From an uncultured Selenomonadales bacterium (GTDB lineage: Bacteria; Bacillota; Negativicutes; Selenomonadales; Selenomonadaceae), in the NCBI GenBank assembly GCA_947165145.1, contig CAMUZG010000008.1, positions 1 through 64,000 on the forward strand: 64,000 nucleotides of DNA. The letters are read 5' to 3'. Shown in pieces: positions 42,743-51,865 of the stretch (the first letter of the stretch is position 1; each line of letters opens with the position of its first letter). Below the pieces are notes generated by a model. That model ran no database searches, was not told the origin of the DNA, and saw only the letters and a program-made list of their open reading frames with translations. The translations under genes were made by a program, and so were the position numbers.

Positions 42743-42774
42743 GAACCAAAAATTTAGCAAAGGACGTGAGCGAC

Positions 42775-45700
42775 TTGGAAGACGATAAAAAATTTTGCGG
42801 CGATGATTGTAGCGATAAGCGGCAGGAAATTTCGCGGCTACGTGATGAACTTGTTCAAGCGCGGGAATTTTTCCACGACAAAGAAAAAATTTTACAGCTC
42901 GCCAAAAAAATTTTCGCACTCAAACCCGACGAGCCCGAACCTGTCGAACGCGTCTCAATGATTTATATCGATTACAACATGGCGGACGAGGCGGAAGCAG
43001 TCGTAACCTACCTTGAAAAAAATTTCCCGCAAACGTCGCGGCGATTGATGTTGCGTGCTCACGTCGCTTGGGTCAAAAACGATTTTTCCGCTTGCATAAA
43101 ATTTGCCGAGCAGGCGTTGGCGATTGACGACGACTTTTTGACGACAATGCAGCTTAACAATCTTTTGGGACAAGTTTATCGGGCTGTCGGCGAAGTCAGC
43201 AAGGCAATCGACCATTACAAACGCAACGCCGAGTTTGACTTGTCCACCGTGGAAAATTCGCCACAATACGCGCAAGCCGAAAATATCAGCCGCAACGATT
43301 ACAGCAACTGGCTTTTCAATCTGCACAATCTCAATGTCACCCGCGAAGAACTTTTCAAGACGGCGGGCGGTTTCGGCAAATTCTTCGAGAAAATTCCGCG
43401 CTACAATCACAATCGCAAACGTCACGCTCGCCACAAAAAAATTCGCGTCGGATACATTTCGGGCGACATTCGCTTTCACGTCGTCGCGTTCTTCAGCGCA
43501 AATTTTTTCACGGCGTACGACAAGACGCGCTTTGAAGTTTTCATTTACGCCAATAACACTGCGGATCACATCACGGAACAATTCTCGGCGAACGTCGACG
43601 GCTTCCGCGACATCTTGGACAAGTCCGCGCAGGACGTTGCCAATCAGATTGTCGACGACGAAATTGATATTCTCGTTGACTTGGCGGGACACACGGCGAA
43701 CAATTCCCTTGAAGTTATGGCGTACAAGCCCGCGCCGATTCAAATCAGCGGCATTGGTTATTTCGACACGACGGGGCTTGATACGATTGATTATTTCCTT
43801 GCCGACAAGTTCACCGACCCCGAAGGTCTCAACGAAAAATTTTTCACGGAAAAAATCTTGCGTCTGCAGCACAGTCACTTTTGCTACGTATGGCACGATT
43901 TGGCGCATTACGTCACGCCCGCGCCTTGCACTAAAGCCGGTTACGTCACGTTCGCGAGCTTTAATCATTTTGCAAAGGTGACTGACGACATGCTCAAGCT
44001 TTGGGCGGAGATTTTGAACGCCGTGCCGAATTCTCGACTGTATCTCAAAGCCTCGGTCTTCGGAGAAAATTACGGTCGGGAACTCGTTCGCGAACGCATG
44101 AAGTCTGCAGGCATTGATCTTGACCGCGTGGACTGCGAGCCGATTGAAAGTGATTACGTTCGCTGTTATGAGCGCGTTGACATTGCGCTTGATACGTTTC
44201 CATACCCCGGCGGCGGCACGACTTGCGATGCGTTGTATATGGGCGTTCCCGTCATCACGTTGGTCGGTGAGCGGCACAATTCCCGTTTCGGCTATTCGTT
44301 GCTGATGAACATCGGGCTTTATGAGCTTTGTGCCTTCAGCGCGGAAGATTATGTTCGCAAGGCGATTGAGCTTGCCGAAGATCGTGAGCGTTTGCGCGAT
44401 TATCATTTGACAATTCGGCGGCGTATGGAAGAATCGCCCGTCATGAACGATACGATTTACATGGGCGAGCTTGAATTGTCTTACGAAAAAATTTTCAGCG
44501 CGTGGCTTAATCGCAAACCGTTGCCAGACTTCCCGCAAGAACCTGAGCCAATCACCAAAGCTCAAGCCAAGGAATATTATCGGCGGGCAATGAGTTACAT
44601 CCCACTTGCTGACGCGAACGACAACAGTAAACTCAATCGCGTCGACTTCAAGCGCACGGTTTATTTCGGCGAGCTTGCCGCGCAGGTTGAATCGGTGTGC
44701 GACGCGAAACTTCTCGTGACGATTGCCGACAGACTTTTTAACTCGAACGACAATGTTGGTTCATATGAATTCATGCGTGCGGCAATGGAGTACATTTATT
44801 CGCCGAAAGGTGTTGCGCAAAATTATCCGAGAAATTTTATCATGGAGTGTCACAGCAGGTTTGCGAAGTTCGCGCACAACAATTTGAATTACGTCGAGGC
44901 GATTGAGCATTATGAACGGGCGTTTGAACTTGCCGATAATCCTGTGCGTCGTTTTGAGTTCTATGACGCGATTCTTTTGACCTTGCATTTTTTGGACATC
45001 ACGAGCGAAGAACTTGCCGCGCCGCATTTCGATTATCAAAAGTTGTTCGCGGACATCAAGCCCTACACGACTTATCACGCGCCACACGATAGAATTCGAG
45101 TTGGCTACATTTCGGGCGATTTCCGCAAGCACGCGGTGTTCATGGTGGTTTTCGGCTTTATGAGCTGTCACGACCGTTCAAAATTTGAAATCACTTGCTA
45201 CAGCCGCAACAAGGAAGATGATTCTTACACCGATTTATATCGGCGCGGCGTGGAACATTTCGTTGACGTGCGCGGTTTGAGCGACGAGGCGATTGCCAAA
45301 AAAATTCACGACGACGAAATTGATATTGCCTTCGATTTGGCGGGACACACCGGCTACAACGGATTGCCCGCGTTGGCGTATCGTCCTGCGCCCGTGCAGA
45401 TTTGCGGTATTGGCTACATGTCGACGACGGGGCTTGACGCAATCGACTACTTCTTGACCGACGAGGTGCTTGACCCGCCGAATCAGAATCGTGAAAAATA
45501 TTTCAGCGAAAAATTTTTGTACATGCCCGCGCAGTTCAGTTATGCTCGCCGCGAAGATTTGCCCGTGCCTGACACCGCGCCCTGCGTCAAAAATGGTTAC
45601 GTGACTTTCGGGACGATTTGCCGCTATTCTAAGATGAACGACGACATGTTCGCCATTTGGACTGAAATTTTAAATCGTGCGCCCAACGCTAAACTTCTCA

Positions 45701-46170
45701 TGCGTGCGCAAGAATTTATCAGCAACAGAACGGTCGACGAGCTTTACGGAAAGTTGAAGGCTTTGGGTTGCGATATGGAACGCGTCTTGATTCGTCCCGC
45801 CGTGAAAGATTATTTCGGCGTGATAAGCCAGGTCGACATCATTTTGGACGCATATCCTTACGTCGGCGGCGCGACAACTCTCGACGCGCTGTATATGGGC
45901 GTACCCGTCGTCAGCTTGTACGGCGAACGTCACAGCACCCGCTTTGCGAAAAGCATTCTGGCGAGCATTGGACTTGAAGATTTGGCGGCGGACAACGCGG
46001 CGGCTTACGTCAACACAGCCGTTGCTCTTGCCAAAGACATTGAGACCCTTGAACTTCTACATAAAAATTTGCGGAAAATGTTCCTGCAAAGCGACGCGCT
46101 CAACCCGAAGAAATATTGTCGGCTGCTTGAAGAAAAATTTACGGAACTCGTTCGCGACAGGCTCCGATAA
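42775..46170 (+). CDS. Double-module SPINDLY/OGT-type glycosyltransferase (two GT41 regions)
   Basis: A ~1131-aa cytosolic protein. A TPR-like region (~40-160) is followed by the first GT41 region (~215-570: IRVGYISGDIRFHVVAFF, DILVDLAGHTANN, DTFPYPGGGTTCDALYMGV). A second TPR-like linker (~590-760) and a second GT41 region (~765-1125: IRVGYISGDFRKHAVFMVV, DIAFDLAGHTGYNG, LDAYPYVGGATTLDALYMGV) follow. The second module replaces the T/C of the GGTTTCEA-type loop by ATTLDA, so it may differ in donor or be structural. TTG at 42775 is 10 nt after AAAGGA; GTG at 42766 is only 1 nt from it. A single-module paralogue lies at 9360. Targets could be flagellin or other surface proteins; no direct evidence. 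Confidence 0.9.
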   Translation: MEDDKKFCGDDCSDKRQEISRLRDELVQAREFFHDKEKILQLAKKIFALKPDEPEPVERVSMIYIDYNMADEAEAVVTYLEKNFPQTSRRLMLRAHVAWVKNDFSACIKFAEQALAIDDDFLTTMQLNNLLGQVYRAVGEVSKAIDHYKRNAEFDLSTVENSPQYAQAENISRNDYSNWLFNLHNLNVTREELFKTAGGFGKFFEKIPRYNHNRKRHARHKKIRVGYISGDIRFHVVAFFSANFFTAYDKTRFEVFIYANNTADHITEQFSANVDGFRDILDKSAQDVANQIVDDEIDILVDLAGHTANNSLEVMAYKPAPIQISGIGYFDTTGLDTIDYFLADKFTDPEGLNEKFFTEKILRLQHSHFCYVWHDLAHYVTPAPCTKAGYVTFASFNHFAKVTDDMLKLWAEILNAVPNSRLYLKASVFGENYGRELVRERMKSAGIDLDRVDCEPIESDYVRCYERVDIALDTFPYPGGGTTCDALYMGVPVITLVGERHNSRFGYSLLMNIGLYELCAFSAEDYVRKAIELAEDRERLRDYHLTIRRRMEESPVMNDTIYMGELELSYEKIFSAWLNRKPLPDFPQEPEPITKAQAKEYYRRAMSYIPLADANDNSKLNRVDFKRTVYFGELAAQVESVCDAKLLVTIADRLFNSNDNVGSYEFMRAAMEYIYSPKGVAQNYPRNFIMECHSRFAKFAHNNLNYVEAIEHYERAFELADNPVRRFEFYDAILLTLHFLDITSEELAAPHFDYQKLFADIKPYTTYHAPHDRIRVGYISGDFRKHAVFMVVFGFMSCHDRSKFEITCYSRNKEDDSYTDLYRRGVEHFVDVRGLSDEAIAKKIHDDEIDIAFDLAGHTGYNGLPALAYRPAPVQICGIGYMSTTGLDAIDYFLTDEVLDPPNQNREKYFSEKFLYMPAQFSYARREDLPVPDTAPCVKNGYVTFGTICRYSKMNDDMFAIWTEILNRAPNAKLLMRAQEFISNRTVDELYGKLKALGCDMERVLIRPAVKDYFGVISQVDIILDAYPYVGGATTLDALYMGVPVVSLYGERHSTRFAKSILASIGLEDLAADNAAAYVNTAVALAKDIETLELLHKNLRKMFLQSDALNPKKYCRLLEEKFTELVRDRLR

Positions 46171-46453
46171 ACTTGCGGCTCGAGTCTTGTTTATCTGAAG
46201 AATTTCTGATAATATCTTCGACAATGAACATTACGGTGAATTGAGGCCGCCAAGGACGGCGGCCGACCCGTCGCCCAGAAAACGTGATGTTTTCGAAGGC
46301 GACAACCACGAGCCACGGCTAGTTTCAACGTTGGAACAGTTTGTACTGAACGCCCCTGCGAGGTGTCTTTTCTTTTGCAACTTTTCTTTGGACAAGCAAA
46401 GAAAAGTTGATCATCAAAATTAAACTCGAAATTAATTTTTGGGAGGATTGACT
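46171..46453. other. Hairpin-rich intergenic region before the J-like gene
   Basis: Four inverted repeats in ~165 bp: GGCCGCC-AAGGAC-GGCGGCC (46245-46264); GTCGCC...GGCGAC (46270-46303) enclosing GAAAAC-GTGAT-GTTTTC; GTTTCAACGTTGGAAC (46322-46337); and a perfect 12-bp stem AACTTTTCTTTG / CAAAGAAAAGTT (46379-46408). A weak TTGTTT-N17-TAATAT lies at 46187-46215. It looks like a mobile palindromic element or a structured leader. Confidence 0.6.
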
Positions 46454-49400
46454 TTGGCTAAACGAAATATCTTTGAGATGCTCGGCTTGGAATTTGATCC
46501 TCCCGACAACATAAAGAAAATCCGTGCCGCTTATGACGCTTGGAAAAAACGCTTGACCGCCGAACAAAATACGACCGTCGACCAAACGCGCCTGGCGGAA
46601 ATTCGTGACGAATTGCAAATGGACAGATATATCGCCGTCACGATTGACAATCCGCGTTTTCGGCAACAGGAAGCTGAATCGCTCAAACGTCAACGCGTGG
46701 AAGAATTGCGGCTGTATATCGACATTCAGCGCGGCGACACCAGCGGCACGTTGCAAGTCAATCAGACACAAATTCGGCGTGTGCGCGAAAAACTCAAGCT
46801 CAGTCCAGCGACAATCGAGGCAACTTATCGCGAACAGGGCTTTGAAATCAAACCTGCGCGGACGGCTCAAAAAATTTTGACGTCACTGAACAGTTTCTTC
46901 ATGAACGATTCGGTGATGGCGGAGCTAGCAAAAAATTTTGAGATGTTCCGTCAAGTGCCCGACGAAAAAAATTTCCCGTGGTCTGCGAACGTCCACGATC
47001 TTTACGAATTGGCGCATTACATTGAAGGACAGATTGAACCTTCCGCCGATTTTTATCACCGCCGTTCAACCGACGACTTGCGCGACATTTTCCGTGACGC
47101 CGCAAAAAAATTCTCCGCACCGATTCCGCAGTGGCAGGCAATTAAAGCTTTGCTCAATCTCGCACAGACGCAGATTTTCAGCACGGACGAAAACCGTTTC
47201 AAGTACGACCATTCGCTGAAGATTGAGACTCTCGCGGAATTTTTCGGCAAGATAAAAGCCGCGCCCGAACTCTTCAAACGCGACAGCTACTTTGCCGACA
47301 ACTGCATTAATCGAATCCGCCGAACCTTCCCGAACATTTTGACTTACGAACTTAGCGCGGCACTTTACAACAAGGCGGCAGGTTTGCTCAAAAATCCGTA
47401 TGAGGCGACCAACGACGTCGGCGAAAATTCTTTTTGTGTGACGTGCGCGAACTGCGGTGCCTTTGAAAATTTCCGAACGCATGAAGAAGCTGAAGCAGGA
47501 CGTTGCAAAATCTGCGGCGAAAATTTTTTTGTCGAGTGTCCGAAATGCGGCAAGAAAACTCCCGCGACTGCCGATCACTGCACGAATTGCGACTTCTCTT
47601 TTAGCGAGCTGAATAAATTTTCAAGCTACGTCACCGAAATGAATTCGATGCTTGATCTCGTCGAACAGGCGCGAAATTCTGATGAATCCGTTAACATCGT
47701 CACGGCGGAAATTATCAAGCTCCTTTCACGCGCACGATTGCTCAAGCCCGAATCTAACGACCTCAAGAAAGTTGAATGGCGAATCAATAAAATCGCCGCC
47801 GAACTTAAACGCCGTGAACTTTATGCTTGGGCTGAAAAAAGTTTGCCGAGTTTGTCAATCGCACCCGCCAAAGCCGTCAGCGACTGCATGGAAATTTTGC
47901 GCAAGATTAAAGACTACAAGCCCGCGCAGGAACGTTTGAAATTGATTCCGCCGAAATCTCCGCCGACTGTCAGCGCAACAATTCGCGAAAATTATTCGTC
48001 TGCGCCCGCGTCACCAATCAGCAAAATTTCCGTCAAAGCCAAGTCGACCAGCGCGATTATCGGTTCCGATTTAGTCTGTCATGTTGCTTGGCAAGCTCCC
48101 GACGACCTCGGCTTGACGTTCACGGTTATTCGCAAAGTTGGCGGCGAGCCGAAGACGTTGCGCGACGGCGATATGTTGATTGAGAATACCGACCGCCTTG
48201 AATTTGTCGACAGCACCGTTAAACCTGGCGTTCTTTACGGCTACGCGGTTTTCTCGACGCGATTAGGCACAACTTCCACGCCGACAACGACGACCGCGCT
48301 ACATTACAGCGACCTCGACGAGAAGAAATTAATTGCCCGAACCGAGAACGGCGCGTGCAAATTCATTTGGCGACTTCCATCCGATAATTGCTTAGGCGTG
48401 CGGATTTTGCGAAGTGACAGTGCGGGCAAAAGCGTCATCGTGGCGGATTGCGTTCAATCGGCGTCCTTCGTCGACAAAGCTGTCAAAAATCGCGAGACCT
48501 ACCAATATCGTCTGCAATGCGTCTACAATTCGGCGGAGGACGTGCTCAATAACAACGAGAAATTTTATTCGCGGCAATCAAGCGACGCGGCGTTGAGCGG
48601 TATCTGGAAGATTGACAAAACTTACAAATACAGCCACGGCTTGACGGTCACTTTGACGCCTGAACAGCCTCCGAAACTTTTGGATAGTCTTACGTGCAGT
48701 GTCAGCGGCGGACGTGTGCATTTCAAGTGGCGTGCGACTGGTGACTTTGCCATTTGGTTTAAGGAAGTCACTAAGGAGCCCGCGCAGATTGACAAGAAAA
48801 TTTTTGAGCTCGACAAAATTGACGAACTGTTCGGTAGCGGCATTGTCCTCAAACGTGCGGAATGTCTCGACGAAGCCTGCGACTTTTCTCTCGGCGGCGA
48901 CAACGTCCGAATCGCCGTCATCAGCGCAACAAAAGAATTCGGCTTGCTCAACGAGATTGTCACCTGCGCGAACGTCGACCCCTGCGAAATTGACGCTGAT
49001 AAAACGCAAATCGACGCGGGCGGCTTGAAACTTGTGCTGAAATCCGTGCCCGACAATCTTTATCTGATTCATTACAAAATCAACACGAACGACGCCGACG
49101 ATCTTTACGCGACGATTGACATGGCGAAGGCGCGGCAGATGAATCGCATTTACGCTGCAAAATACGCGCAGGACACCTTCATCACGCAAACGCATTTGCC
49201 GCCGAAAGAAATTTACATCACGGTTATCGGCGAATACAAATTCAGTGACGGGTCAGCGGCTTATTCCGAGCCAAGCACGTTGATTTTGAGCAATCGCCCG
49301 AAAGAAATCATTTCGTATCGGCTGGAGTGGGGCACGACAGGTTTTATAAACAAAACTCTACACGCGAAAGATTGTCGACTGATTATCGAGAGCACTGCCC

Positions 49401-49669
49401 GCCCGACGCCGAAAATGTCGTTGGTTTGTCGACGTGACGGACGCATGAATATTGAGCCTGGCGATTCGTCGACGCGCACGCTCGGTGATGTCAAAGCTTT
49501 TGCGAACGGCTACGTGAATGGGCGACTGGAAGTTTCTTTGCCGAACGACACGTGGAAAGATGTTGCGCAAGGCACGGTTGTCAAGCTCATCACCGCCGAT
49601 AAAGACGATGAGCGGCGTTTCGAGTTGAAGGCGTCGCGTCCCGACAGTTTAGTTGTCCCGAAGAAGTAG
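46454..49669 (+). CDS. Large J-like / zinc-ribbon / FN3-like protein of unknown function
   Basis: A ~1071-aa protein without signal peptide. Residues 1-~60 (KRNIFEMLGLEFDPPDN, AAYDAWKKRL) resemble a J-type helical domain but lack the HPD motif. A helical region runs to ~320. Residues ~327-380 hold four Cys pairs (CVTCANC, CKIC, CPKC, CTNC), i.e. two zinc ribbons. A helical segment (~385-500) follows. The remainder (~520-1070) is beta-rich with repeated units like VCHVAWQAP, CKFIWRLPSD, VHFKWRATG, which look like tandem fibronectin III-type domains. TTG at 46454 has GGGAGG 8 nt upstream. It is followed by a zinc-ribbon GTPase and a vWA protein. Probably a scaffold in a GTPase-driven system; function not known. 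Confidence 0.7.
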   Translation: MAKRNIFEMLGLEFDPPDNIKKIRAAYDAWKKRLTAEQNTTVDQTRLAEIRDELQMDRYIAVTIDNPRFRQQEAESLKRQRVEELRLYIDIQRGDTSGTLQVNQTQIRRVREKLKLSPATIEATYREQGFEIKPARTAQKILTSLNSFFMNDSVMAELAKNFEMFRQVPDEKNFPWSANVHDLYELAHYIEGQIEPSADFYHRRSTDDLRDIFRDAAKKFSAPIPQWQAIKALLNLAQTQIFSTDENRFKYDHSLKIETLAEFFGKIKAAPELFKRDSYFADNCINRIRRTFPNILTYELSAALYNKAAGLLKNPYEATNDVGENSFCVTCANCGAFENFRTHEEAEAGRCKICGENFFVECPKCGKKTPATADHCTNCDFSFSELNKFSSYVTEMNSMLDLVEQARNSDESVNIVTAEIIKLLSRARLLKPESNDLKKVEWRINKIAAELKRRELYAWAEKSLPSLSIAPAKAVSDCMEILRKIKDYKPAQERLKLIPPKSPPTVSATIRENYSSAPASPISKISVKAKSTSAIIGSDLVCHVAWQAPDDLGLTFTVIRKVGGEPKTLRDGDMLIENTDRLEFVDSTVKPGVLYGYAVFSTRLGTTSTPTTTTALHYSDLDEKKLIARTENGACKFIWRLPSDNCLGVRILRSDSAGKSVIVADCVQSASFVDKAVKNRETYQYRLQCVYNSAEDVLNNNEKFYSRQSSDAALSGIWKIDKTYKYSHGLTVTLTPEQPPKLLDSLTCSVSGGRVHFKWRATGDFAIWFKEVTKEPAQIDKKIFELDKIDELFGSGIVLKRAECLDEACDFSLGGDNVRIAVISATKEFGLLNEIVTCANVDPCEIDADKTQIDAGGLKLVLKSVPDNLYLIHYKINTNDADDLYATIDMAKARQMNRIYAAKYAQDTFITQTHLPPKEIYITVIGEYKFSDGSAAYSEPSTLILSNRPKEIISYRLEWGTTGFINKTLHAKDCRLIIESTARPTPKMSLVCRRDGRMNIEPGDSSTRTLGDVKAFANGYVNGRLEVSLPNDTWKDVAQGTVVKLITADKDDERRFELKASRPDSLVVPKK

Positions 49670-49742
49670 GTTAGTAGGTTAGTAGGTTAATAGTGAAAGA
49701 CTTTTCTAATAACCTATTAACCTAATTCCATAATAACCTATC
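49667..49742. repeat. 8-bp tandem-repeat hairpin between the J-like and GTPase genes
   Basis: Left arm GTTAGTAG-GTTAGTAG-GTTAATAG; right arm TAATAACC-TATTAACC-TAATTCCA-TAATAACC. The first TAG of the array is the stop codon of the J-like gene. It ends ~10 bp before the GTPase ribosome site. Confidence 0.85.
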
Positions 49743-49762
49743 AACTCACCGGAGGTTCACGA

Positions 49763-50917
49763 ATGTCTATGTTCAGCAAGTCGGAGGCAGTTTGCCCGCA
49801 CTGTCTGCGGAAAATCAAGCTCAGCGACATGAAATTTTTTTGCGTGCCCGACGAAGACAATCGTCACGAAGTCAAACTGTCGTTCGTCGACAAGCTCAAA
49901 GGGCGACTCCCCGTTTGCAGACGAAAATTTTGCCGCGACCACGGCTTGACCGTCCGCGAGGCTGCTTGCCGTCATTGCGGAGAAAATTTACCACCACAAA
50001 TTCTTTTCCACGACAAATTCTTGAGCTTTTGTGCAGTCGGCGTGGCAGGCGCAGGAAAATCCAGCTACATGACGACGCTTTTGCACGAGCTGAAATATTC
50101 GGGCTTGCCGTGGGTTTTGCAGGCGATGGACGTTGAAACGACTCAACGCGCACAATTCAACGAGCAACACGTCTACGAAGAACGGCACTGTTTGCAGGGA
50201 ACGACGGCGGGCGTGTCACCTAAACCGCAGCTGTGGACGATACTCGACAATTCAAAGCAAAACGACCGCGTACCGACTTACGCGCTGACGATTTACGACG
50301 GAGCAGGCGAAGATTGCGAACACATTGATTACACGCCGCTGGACGCAAAAGTCAGCAACTATCTTTCTGGCGCGAAAATGTTGCTGATTATGTTCGACCC
50401 GCTGTTATTGCCGAGCGTTCGCGGAGAAATTTCGCACGAAACTTTGAACGCGTCAATGGCGACTGAACGTCAAACTTCCGCGCCTGCGAATATGGTCAGC
50501 ATGGTGAATTCGTTGGCAAATTACATTCGACGAGCCTGCAACATTCCGCCCGGTAGACGCATTGACCGCCGCGCAGCTGTCGTCCTGACGAAAATCGACG
50601 CTTTAACGGAAATGTTGAACGGATTTGCTTCCGGCGCAACGATTCTCAAGCAAAGTCCGCACATTCTGAACCGCGCGTTCGTCGAATCAGACAGCGAAAT
50701 GGTTGACCTTGAAATTCGCGATTGGCTTACTCGTCAGGGCGAAACGGCTTTTCTCGGCGCAATCGACGCAAATTTCAGGGACGTGAGAGTTTTTGGCGTG
50801 TCGAGTTTCGGCAGACCGCCCGATGCTTACAAACGGCTTGCGAAAGTTTGTCCGCACAGAGTTCTTGACCCGTTGATGTGGATGCTTGCCCGCGAAGGCA
50901 TTATCCCGACTATCTAG
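49763..50917 (+). CDS. Zinc-ribbon TRAFAC-type P-loop GTPase
   Basis: A 384-aa protein. The N-terminal ~80 residues hold Cys/His pairs (CPHC, CRRKFCRDHG, CRHCG), i.e. zinc-ribbon modules. The P-loop is FCAVGVAGAGKSSYMT (~92), the switch II/Walker B-like motif is LTIYDGAGEDCEHI (~178) and the base-specificity motif is VVLTKIDAL (TKxD, ~276), an arrangement of TRAFAC GTPases. No membrane helices. GGAGG 8 nt upstream of the ATG. Proteins of this sort occur in predicted multi-gene GTPase systems next to vWA and J-like partners, as here. Ends in IPTI-TAG within a MITE-like repeat. Confidence 0.8.
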   Translation: MSMFSKSEAVCPHCLRKIKLSDMKFFCVPDEDNRHEVKLSFVDKLKGRLPVCRRKFCRDHGLTVREAACRHCGENLPPQILFHDKFLSFCAVGVAGAGKSSYMTTLLHELKYSGLPWVLQAMDVETTQRAQFNEQHVYEERHCLQGTTAGVSPKPQLWTILDNSKQNDRVPTYALTIYDGAGEDCEHIDYTPLDAKVSNYLSGAKMLLIMFDPLLLPSVRGEISHETLNASMATERQTSAPANMVSMVNSLANYIRRACNIPPGRRIDRRAAVVLTKIDALTEMLNGFASGATILKQSPHILNRAFVESDSEMVDLEIRDWLTRQGETAFLGAIDANFRDVRVFGVSSFGRPPDAYKRLAKVCPHRVLDPLMWMLAREGIIPTI

Positions 50918-51030
50918 GGGCTGTTAGCAAGCTCTGGCAGTGACGGTTCTTTTTCCGTCTGACGTTAAGTCTTGTCAGCCGAAAAAATTCCTCGTCACAT
51001 CATGTTTCTGACTTTACCAACACGCTCTAA
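50914..51030. repeat. MITE-like element, copy B (full)
   Basis: Left end TAGGGGCTGTTAGCAA and right end (minus strand) TTAGAGCGTGTTGGTAAA form imperfect terminal inverted repeats. Inside, GTGACGGTTCTTTTTCCG...CTGAC pairs with GTCAGCCGAAAAAATTCCTCGTCAC. About 117 bp, no coding capacity. The GTPase TAG stop codon lies in its left end. Confidence 0.8.
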
Positions 51031-51046
51031 ACGTCAATAAAAAATT

Positions 51047-51058
51047 CTTAAATTTAAG
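51047..51058. promoter_or_regulatory. Palindrome upstream of the vWA promoter
   Basis: CTTAAATTTAAG is a perfect 12-bp palindrome, 20 bp before the -35 hexamer. It could be an operator, or simply an A/T-rich UP-like region. Confidence 0.35.
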
Positions 51059-51077
51059 TTAAGACAAGCAAAACTGG

Positions 51078-51106
51078 TTGAAAAATTTTTCTCGTTTGAG
51101 TATAAT
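51078..51106 (+). promoter_or_regulatory. Promoter of the vWA gene
   Basis: TTGAAA (51078-51083), 17 bp, TATAAT (51101-51106), 50 bp before the start codon. Confidence 0.8.
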
Positions 51107-51156
51107 CCCGCCATGTCCGCGAATGATATTTTGATTTTAAAGGAGGCTGAACCCTA

Positions 51157-51810
51157 ATGAGTGACCTTACCGAAATCGTATTCATTCTCGACCGCTCCGG
51201 TTCAATGCACGGGCTTGAGCGCGACACAATCGGCGGCTTTAACTCGATGATTGAGAAACAGCAATCCGAAGTTGAAGGCGATGCGTTCGTTTCAACGGTG
51301 CTTTTCAACGAAAGATCTTTCGTCCTGCACGACCGCATTCCGCTCACTGACATCAAGCCGCTCACCGAAGAAGATTATCAAGTCGGCGGAATGACTGCCC
51401 TGCTTGACGCCGTGGGTGACGCAATCAAACATATCAAGAACATTCACAAATACGCCCGCGAAGAGGATCGTCCGCTGAAAACCATGTTCGTCATCACAAC
51501 CGACGGATTCGAAAACGCCAGCCGCCATTTTAACTACAGCGACATCAAACACCTAATCGAACAGCAAAAGGAAGTTGGTTGGGAATTCGTTTTCCTGGGC
51601 GCGAACATCGACGCCGAGCAAGTTGCAGGCAGTATCGGCATCGACAGAGACAGTTCCGCCAATTATCACGCCGACGAAATGGGTATGGCACACATTTTCG
51701 GCGCAATGAGCAAACGCCTTTCCGTTGCACGCAGAAATCCGCGAACTTCTTCCGCCAGCGACAGATCTTGGCGCGAAGAACTTGACATCGACTTCATCAG
51801 ACGCAAATAA
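51157..51810 (+). CDS. vWA-domain (TerY-like) protein
   Basis: A 217-aa soluble protein consisting mainly of one von Willebrand factor A domain. A complete MIDAS metal site is visible: D-x-S-x-S in FILDRSGSMHG (11-15), the Thr in GGMTALLDAV and the Asp in VITTDGFEN. The C-terminal ~35 residues are basic and Ser/Arg-rich. Cytosolic, like TerY-type vWA proteins found with GTPases, kinases or MoxR ATPases in stress and predicted conflict systems. It has its own promoter but follows the GTPase gene directly on the same strand. AAGGAGG upstream of the ATG. Confidence 0.85.
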   Translation: MSDLTEIVFILDRSGSMHGLERDTIGGFNSMIEKQQSEVEGDAFVSTVLFNERSFVLHDRIPLTDIKPLTEEDYQVGGMTALLDAVGDAIKHIKNIHKYAREEDRPLKTMFVITTDGFENASRHFNYSDIKHLIEQQKEVGWEFVFLGANIDAEQVAGSIGIDRDSSANYHADEMGMAHIFGAMSKRLSVARRNPRTSSASDRSWREELDIDFIRRK

Positions 51811-51836: not shown

Positions 51837-51865
51837 GCCGTCTCGCAATGAGGCGGTTTTTTTTT
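51837..51865 (+). terminator. Rho-independent terminator after the vWA gene
   Basis: CGCCGTCTC-GCAAT-GAGGCGG followed by nine T, 26 bp after the stop. Confidence 0.9.

Follow-up and report, generated by a model that had tools for sequence, protein, structure and literature searches.

What do three consecutive plus-strand genes, flanked upstream by a double GT41 (OGT/SPINDLY-like) gene and downstream by rpoB (whose product we take from its sequence to be RpoB), do in an uncultured rumen-type Selenomonadaceae bacterium, and do they belong together? They lie on contig CAMUZG010000008.1 of assembly GCA_947165145.1, the first 64,000 nucleotides of which were analysed (the window). A preliminary description read them as one undescribed system, a J-like/zinc-ribbon/fibronectin type III (FN3) protein, a zinc-ribbon GTPase and a TerY-like vWA protein, and recognised no named system with this trio. 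Neither claim is supported: among the genomes tested the vWA gene adjoins genes 1 and 2 in the host only, and two of the three, genes 1 and 2, match components of a named, predicted system, the Hsp70 theme of the GAP1-N2 DO-GTPase systems. Judging from their sequences and those of their relatives, genes 1 and 2 almost certainly have their origin in a DO-GTPase system of the GAP1-N2 type, within its Hsp70/GrpE theme; gene 3, the vWA gene, forms a separate module and is a chance neighbour. The open reading frames themselves are real, as described, and the features that matter most are these:

46454..49669, plus strand: gene 1, the J/FNIII component, with J-like, helical, double zinc-ribbon and FN3-array parts, 1071 aa (open reading frame; 62 of 66 genus genomes; AlphaFold2 model)
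46454..46696, plus strand: residues 1-81 of gene 1, a J-like domain without HPD (Z 7.6 to the CbpA J-domain, 3ucs_C)
47444..47590, plus strand: residues ~331-379 of gene 1, with its two zinc ribbons (invariant Cys in the alignment; DZR weak in 15 of 17 members)
47948..49666, plus strand: residues 499-1071 of gene 1, an FN3 array whose fold was checked as far as ~950 (fibronectin FN3 tandems, Z 14.5, Foldseek E 1e-11)
49763..50917, plus strand: gene 2, a zinc-ribbon DO-GTPase-like TRAFAC GTPase, 384 aa (weak DO-GTPase1/2 matches here and in most relatives; motifs; 50 of 66 genus genomes)
51157..51810, plus strand: gene 3, a stand-alone vWA protein, 217 aa, not part of the system (VWA above cut-off; co-location test)

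The descent of genes 1 and 2 is clearest from complete relatives. Among GAP1-N2 GTPase-centric systems the second theme, in the passages that deal with it, comprises an HSP70, a GrpE, an FNIII protein fused to DnaJ, a GTPase that bears two zinc ribbons at its N-terminus, and GAP1; the family is proposed there to consist of conflict systems with GAP1 as their constant hub (Kaur, Burroughs, Iyer and Aravind, 2020; PMC7159879). At the rumen Clostridia loci L061 and L065 the gene order is membrane DO-GTPase1, GrpE-like, HSP70, gene-1 homologue (34-37% identity), gene-2 homologue (46-48% identity) and GAP1, with an extra HSP70-vWA gene between the HSP70 and the gene-1 homologue in L065. L061 scores above the Pfam cut-offs for both DO-GTPase1 (PF19975, 29.4 against 27) and GAP1-M (PF20014, 28.9 against 24). 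The clostridial order is kept in the Selenomonadaceae genomes G043 and G066, which have a GrpE above cut-off, an HSP70-vWA fusion and, by eye, a WYL-like regulator next door. The gene-1 proteins are joined by a chain of homology, in which a selenomonad profile finds the clostridial L065 protein at 7e-10 and that protein is 37% identical to gene 1. The Hsp70 with a C-terminal vWA domain is encoded at L065:4436-6721 and L150:8443-10536 in complete systems; the passages of Kaur et al. (2020) on this theme mention a second Hsp70 lacking the peptide-binding domain, and not an Hsp70-vWA fusion. No experimental characterisation of DO-GTPase/GAP1-N2 systems was found in the literature searched.

The domain composition of both proteins, as first described, was borne out. 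The open reading frame of gene 1 begins at 46439 or 46454; the TTG at 46454 is preceded by GGAGG and gives an N-terminus, MAKRNIF, that is conserved in relatives. Pfam gave no useful match to gene 1, not even FN3; searches of the PDB with single sequences returned nothing useful, and NCBIfam and PADLOC had no match for either gene. An AlphaFold2 model of the whole of gene 1 has a mean pLDDT of 81.8, and residues 1-329, folded separately, reach 89.3. For residues 1-81 the top structural match is the E. coli CbpA J-domain (Z 7.6, root-mean-square deviation (rmsd) 3.1, 72 of 74 residues), with the second-best row at Z 6.3; Foldseek found nothing at E<0.001 for the N-terminal part, which is still compatible with the J family. 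We regard this weak but whole-domain match as suggestive of a J-like fold, and no proof of one. None of the 16 gene-1 relatives in which the N-terminus is present has an HPD motif. The zinc ribbons follow a pattern of two CxxC...CxxC with invariant cysteines, and residues 499-839 match fibronectin FN3 tandems over 256 aligned residues (Z 14.5, rmsd 4.0), a match that longer fibronectin fragments stretch to ~950.

Gene 2 has a complete set of GTPase motifs, namely G1 GVAGAGKSS (93-101), DGAGED (179-184), whose E183 is invariant, and TKID (276-279). Its Cys 11/14, 27, 57 and 69/72, which form two zinc-ribbon-like sets, are invariant among 15 relatives, down to 25% identity. Gene 2 is nearer to clostridial copies (46-48%) than to other selenomonad copies (25-26%), which suggests that it moved laterally between rumen Clostridia and an ancestor of Quinella. 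Partial copies of its 3' end lie just downstream of gene 2 in several relatives, or at a contig start ahead of the small gene c5 described below (L029:2273-2447, L034:4621-4677, L022:2854-3097, L063:2-286), as if this end were a hot spot for recombination or insertion.

Set beside the Hsp70/GrpE theme as that paper's passages describe it, genes 1 and 2 share the J/FNIII protein, the GTPase with two N-terminal zinc ribbons, a dedicated Hsp70, a GrpE-like gene, and the conserved glutamate after the Walker B aspartate of the GTPase. They differ in having no GAP1, no second, membrane-anchored GTPase and no Hsp70-vWA, in being near-core in the genus with parts that are often scattered, and in a J-like domain without HPD. 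DO-GTPase2 and DO-GTPase1 (PF19993, PF19975) are the best family matches of gene 2 and of most of its relatives, but gene 2 itself stays below cut-off. With the J-domain proteins CbpA and DnaJ, gene 1 shares the pairing with an Hsp70 and, as the weak structural match suggests, perhaps the helical arrangement, but not the HPD motif.

How the missing parts should be read depends on the genus. The host assembly (1.94 Mb, 43 contigs, 82.8% complete) has Quinella and other rumen Selenomonadaceae metagenome assemblies as its nearest named kin, and we counted genes across 66 genomes of this Quinella-type genus; these are draft metagenome-assembled genomes, in which a single absence is weak evidence. 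Gene 1 occurs in 62 of the 66, the dedicated Hsp70 in 60 (at high identity) and gene 2 in 50. No more than 1 kb separates genes 1 and 2 in 37 of 49 genomes, and gene 1 and the Hsp70 lie within 3.5 kb in 21 of 58, the neighbourhood expected of the Hsp70 theme. In the host, the GrpE-like and Hsp70 genes are on a separate contig (G000 contig C5:2018-4291), the GrpE-like protein scoring 17.7 in Pfam against a cut-off of 25.8; in many relatives these two genes are next to gene 1. On the same contig of the host, ~4 kb from the dedicated Hsp70, the minus strand encodes an Hsp70-like protein of 970 aa that carries a long extension at its C-terminus (L130:8409-11321). In G040, a complete genome, all three of gene 1, gene 2 and the Hsp70 are missing. 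The gene-1 tree contains one well-supported clade of seven genomes without gene 2, which one lone genome also lacks; all of these keep gene 1 and the Hsp70.

GAP1 was detected in none of the 66 genomes, either with the Pfam model PF20014 or with our own five-sequence profile. A clostridia-only profile found nothing in the Quinella loci examined; it is able to detect a GAP1, since it recovers the held-out selenomonad GAP1 proteins at E 2.5e-16 and 2e-10. This is the firmest of the absences because it is uniform over the 66 genomes, and because of it we class genes 1 and 2, from gene content, as a GAP1-less derivative, not a member, of the GAP1-N2 system. The membrane DO-GTPase was likewise detected in none of the 66 genomes, where its profile matches only gene 2. 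Two small genes were considered as GAP1 replacements. One, c5, encodes a ~210-aa helical protein ending in KKSFLDRFF (for example L036:11252-11896), and follows gene 2 in many species and gene 1 where gene 2 has been lost (L133); being found in 26 of 66 genomes, absent from the host and present in G040 without the rest, it is at most an optional partner. The other, c2, a signal-peptide gene of ~198 aa downstream of gene 2 in other species, is a candidate.

Codon comparisons with near kin place genes 1, 2 and the Hsp70 under purifying selection, with dN/dS of 0.07-0.12 for genes 1 and 2 and ~0.05 for the Hsp70; the FN3 part of gene 1 evolves only mildly faster. Near-universal presence, low dN/dS and the loss of GAP1 together suggest a household role, in protein assembly or quality control, over an arms-race sensor. 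We therefore favour, with some reservation, the reading that genes 1 and 2 come from a GAP1-N2-type system and persist in Quinella as a pared-down Hsp70 module, probably a domesticated derivative. A household role in the GTP-regulated control of an Hsp70 is a tentative proposal, to which we would give slightly less than even chances; the GTP-switched assembly or quality-control complex that had been suggested for the locus is a sensible idea. The HPD-less J-like domain would dock the dedicated Hsp70 and not drive its ATPase cycle in the standard way, while a client or scaffold site would lie in gene 1's zinc ribbons and FN3 array. The GTPase would bind the gene 1 complex, its GTP form switching client loading or assembly, and the GrpE-like protein would reset the Hsp70. 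Because one clade has lost the GTPase and kept gene 1 and the Hsp70, the working core may be the Hsp70 with gene 1, and the GTPase its regulator.

Several points weigh against this reading. The J-like fold depends on a Z of 7.6, just below the level of a safe match, and gene 1 has no sequence-level match to DnaJ. Gene 2 scores 18.5 and 16.2 bits with the Pfam pair PF19993/PF19975 against a cut-off of 27, which a paralogue in the homologous locus L061 does clear (29.4). Hsp70 and GrpE are not adjacent to genes 1 and 2 in the window, and the joint absence of gene 1 and Hsp70 is weakly significant (Fisher p 0.04) in genomes that are incomplete. Finally, sequence alone does not separate domestication from a conserved defence.

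In the strongest competing reading, genes 1 and 2 still belong to a conflict (anti-phage) system: the FN3 array would sense an invader, the GTPase would set the threshold, and Hsp70 assemblies would be the effector. Kaur et al. (2020; PMC7159879) propose such a function for the family in the passages cited above, and full relatives retain GAP1, the membrane GTPase and the neighbouring WYL-like regulator. In Quinella, however, the proposed constant hub was not found in 66 genomes, the genes are near-core and under purifying selection with an FN3 part that is not hypervariable, and they are dispersed over the chromosome in many species. The phage collection held no kin of the system, and the plasmid collection a single distant match of 24% identity. 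We consider a continuing role in conflict unlikely, at roughly one chance in four. Much less probable is that a formerly complete system is decaying here and the genes left over do little: GAP1 and the membrane GTPase are gone, one clade no longer has the GTPase and the operon is scattered, but gene 1 frames are full-length across most of the 62 genomes and dN/dS stays at about 0.05-0.12.

Gene 3 has its own neighbours and its own signals, the latter being:

51078..51106, plus strand: sigma-70-like promoter of the vWA gene, TTGAAA-17-TATAAT, an 11/12 match, in the gap after gene 2
51837..51857, plus strand: terminator-like hairpin and T-run after the vWA gene, from the sequence

It is a vWA protein (Pfam 25.9 against a cut-off of 23.8) with, by eye, the complete DRSGS/T/D MIDAS that had been noted. 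With TerF/TerY-like vWA proteins (PF10138, PF00092) it shares the MIDAS-bearing vWA domain and a weak TerF-like match, but among the three genes and the genes flanking them there is no PP2C phosphatase or zinc-ribbon kinase of a TerY-P triad, gene 3 has no adjoining kinase, phosphatase or ter genes, and its usual partner is another small protein. A PADLOC match to PDC-S05 (E 0.001, 54 residues) was judged to be generic vWA. Homologues of gene 3 occur in 49 of 66 genomes, often several in each, and a further 20 loci were inspected, in most of which the vWA gene is preceded by a ~180-aa gene whose product is helical, HTH-like by eye, uncharacterised and without a Pfam match. The pairing is seen in L170-L187, with a fusion of the two in L184 (5647-6882), and the small partner carries the sequence ETFSEMLxRLIxESGEKNSxxYxRANIDRRHFSKI...; the two may form a module of their own. 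The reading of all three genes as one system, with the vWA protein as its third working part, has same-strand adjacency in the host genome and the vWA domains fused to Hsp70 in complete relatives on its side, but is the least probable of all and is rejected by co-location: the vWA gene lies within 3.5 kb of gene 1 in the host alone among 45 genomes with both (one more within 15 kb, at 6-7 kb), and within 3.5 kb of gene 2 in none of 35 other genomes with both. A promoter and a terminator of its own also speak against that reading, as does its usual place elsewhere, behind the ~180-aa protein or fused to it.

The surroundings of the genes add little. A 1134-aa protein with two TPR/GT41 (OGT/SPINDLY-like) halves is encoded directly upstream of gene 1 (window 42766-46170). 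The repeats that had been described as hairpin and MITE-like borders of the locus are present:

46230..46426, no strand: repeat of ~190 bp upstream of gene 1, dispersed, with ~35 further genomic copies
49667..49740, no strand: palindromic repeat of ~74 bp in the gap from gene 1 to gene 2, dispersed, at about 15-20 genome sites

By these copy counts they are ordinary repeats and not special to the locus; because both are dispersed families of the host genome, they are a genome-wide trait and uninformative about the system.

The predicted GTPase-Hsp70 system is already known, and what is new here is a reduced, long-conserved version of it in a rumen bacterium. The identification of genes 1 and 2 with it is strong; their function is what we infer from sequence. 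Within the literature searched, what is known of DO-GTPase systems comes from comparing genomes only. Here a genus has held on to the Hsp70, the J/FN3 protein and the GTPase while losing the supposed hub GAP1, and one of its clades has lost the GTPase too. Nature has thereby dissected such a system, indicating the parts that can work by themselves and a minimal set for reconstitution in the test tube. A former conflict system may, more speculatively, have become a near-core, GTP-gated Hsp70 machine in a giant rumen bacterium, in which an HPD-less J/FN3 protein and a zinc-ribbon GTPase would replace control by DnaJ. The genus also suggests that the parts of 'conflict' systems can be converted into household machinery.

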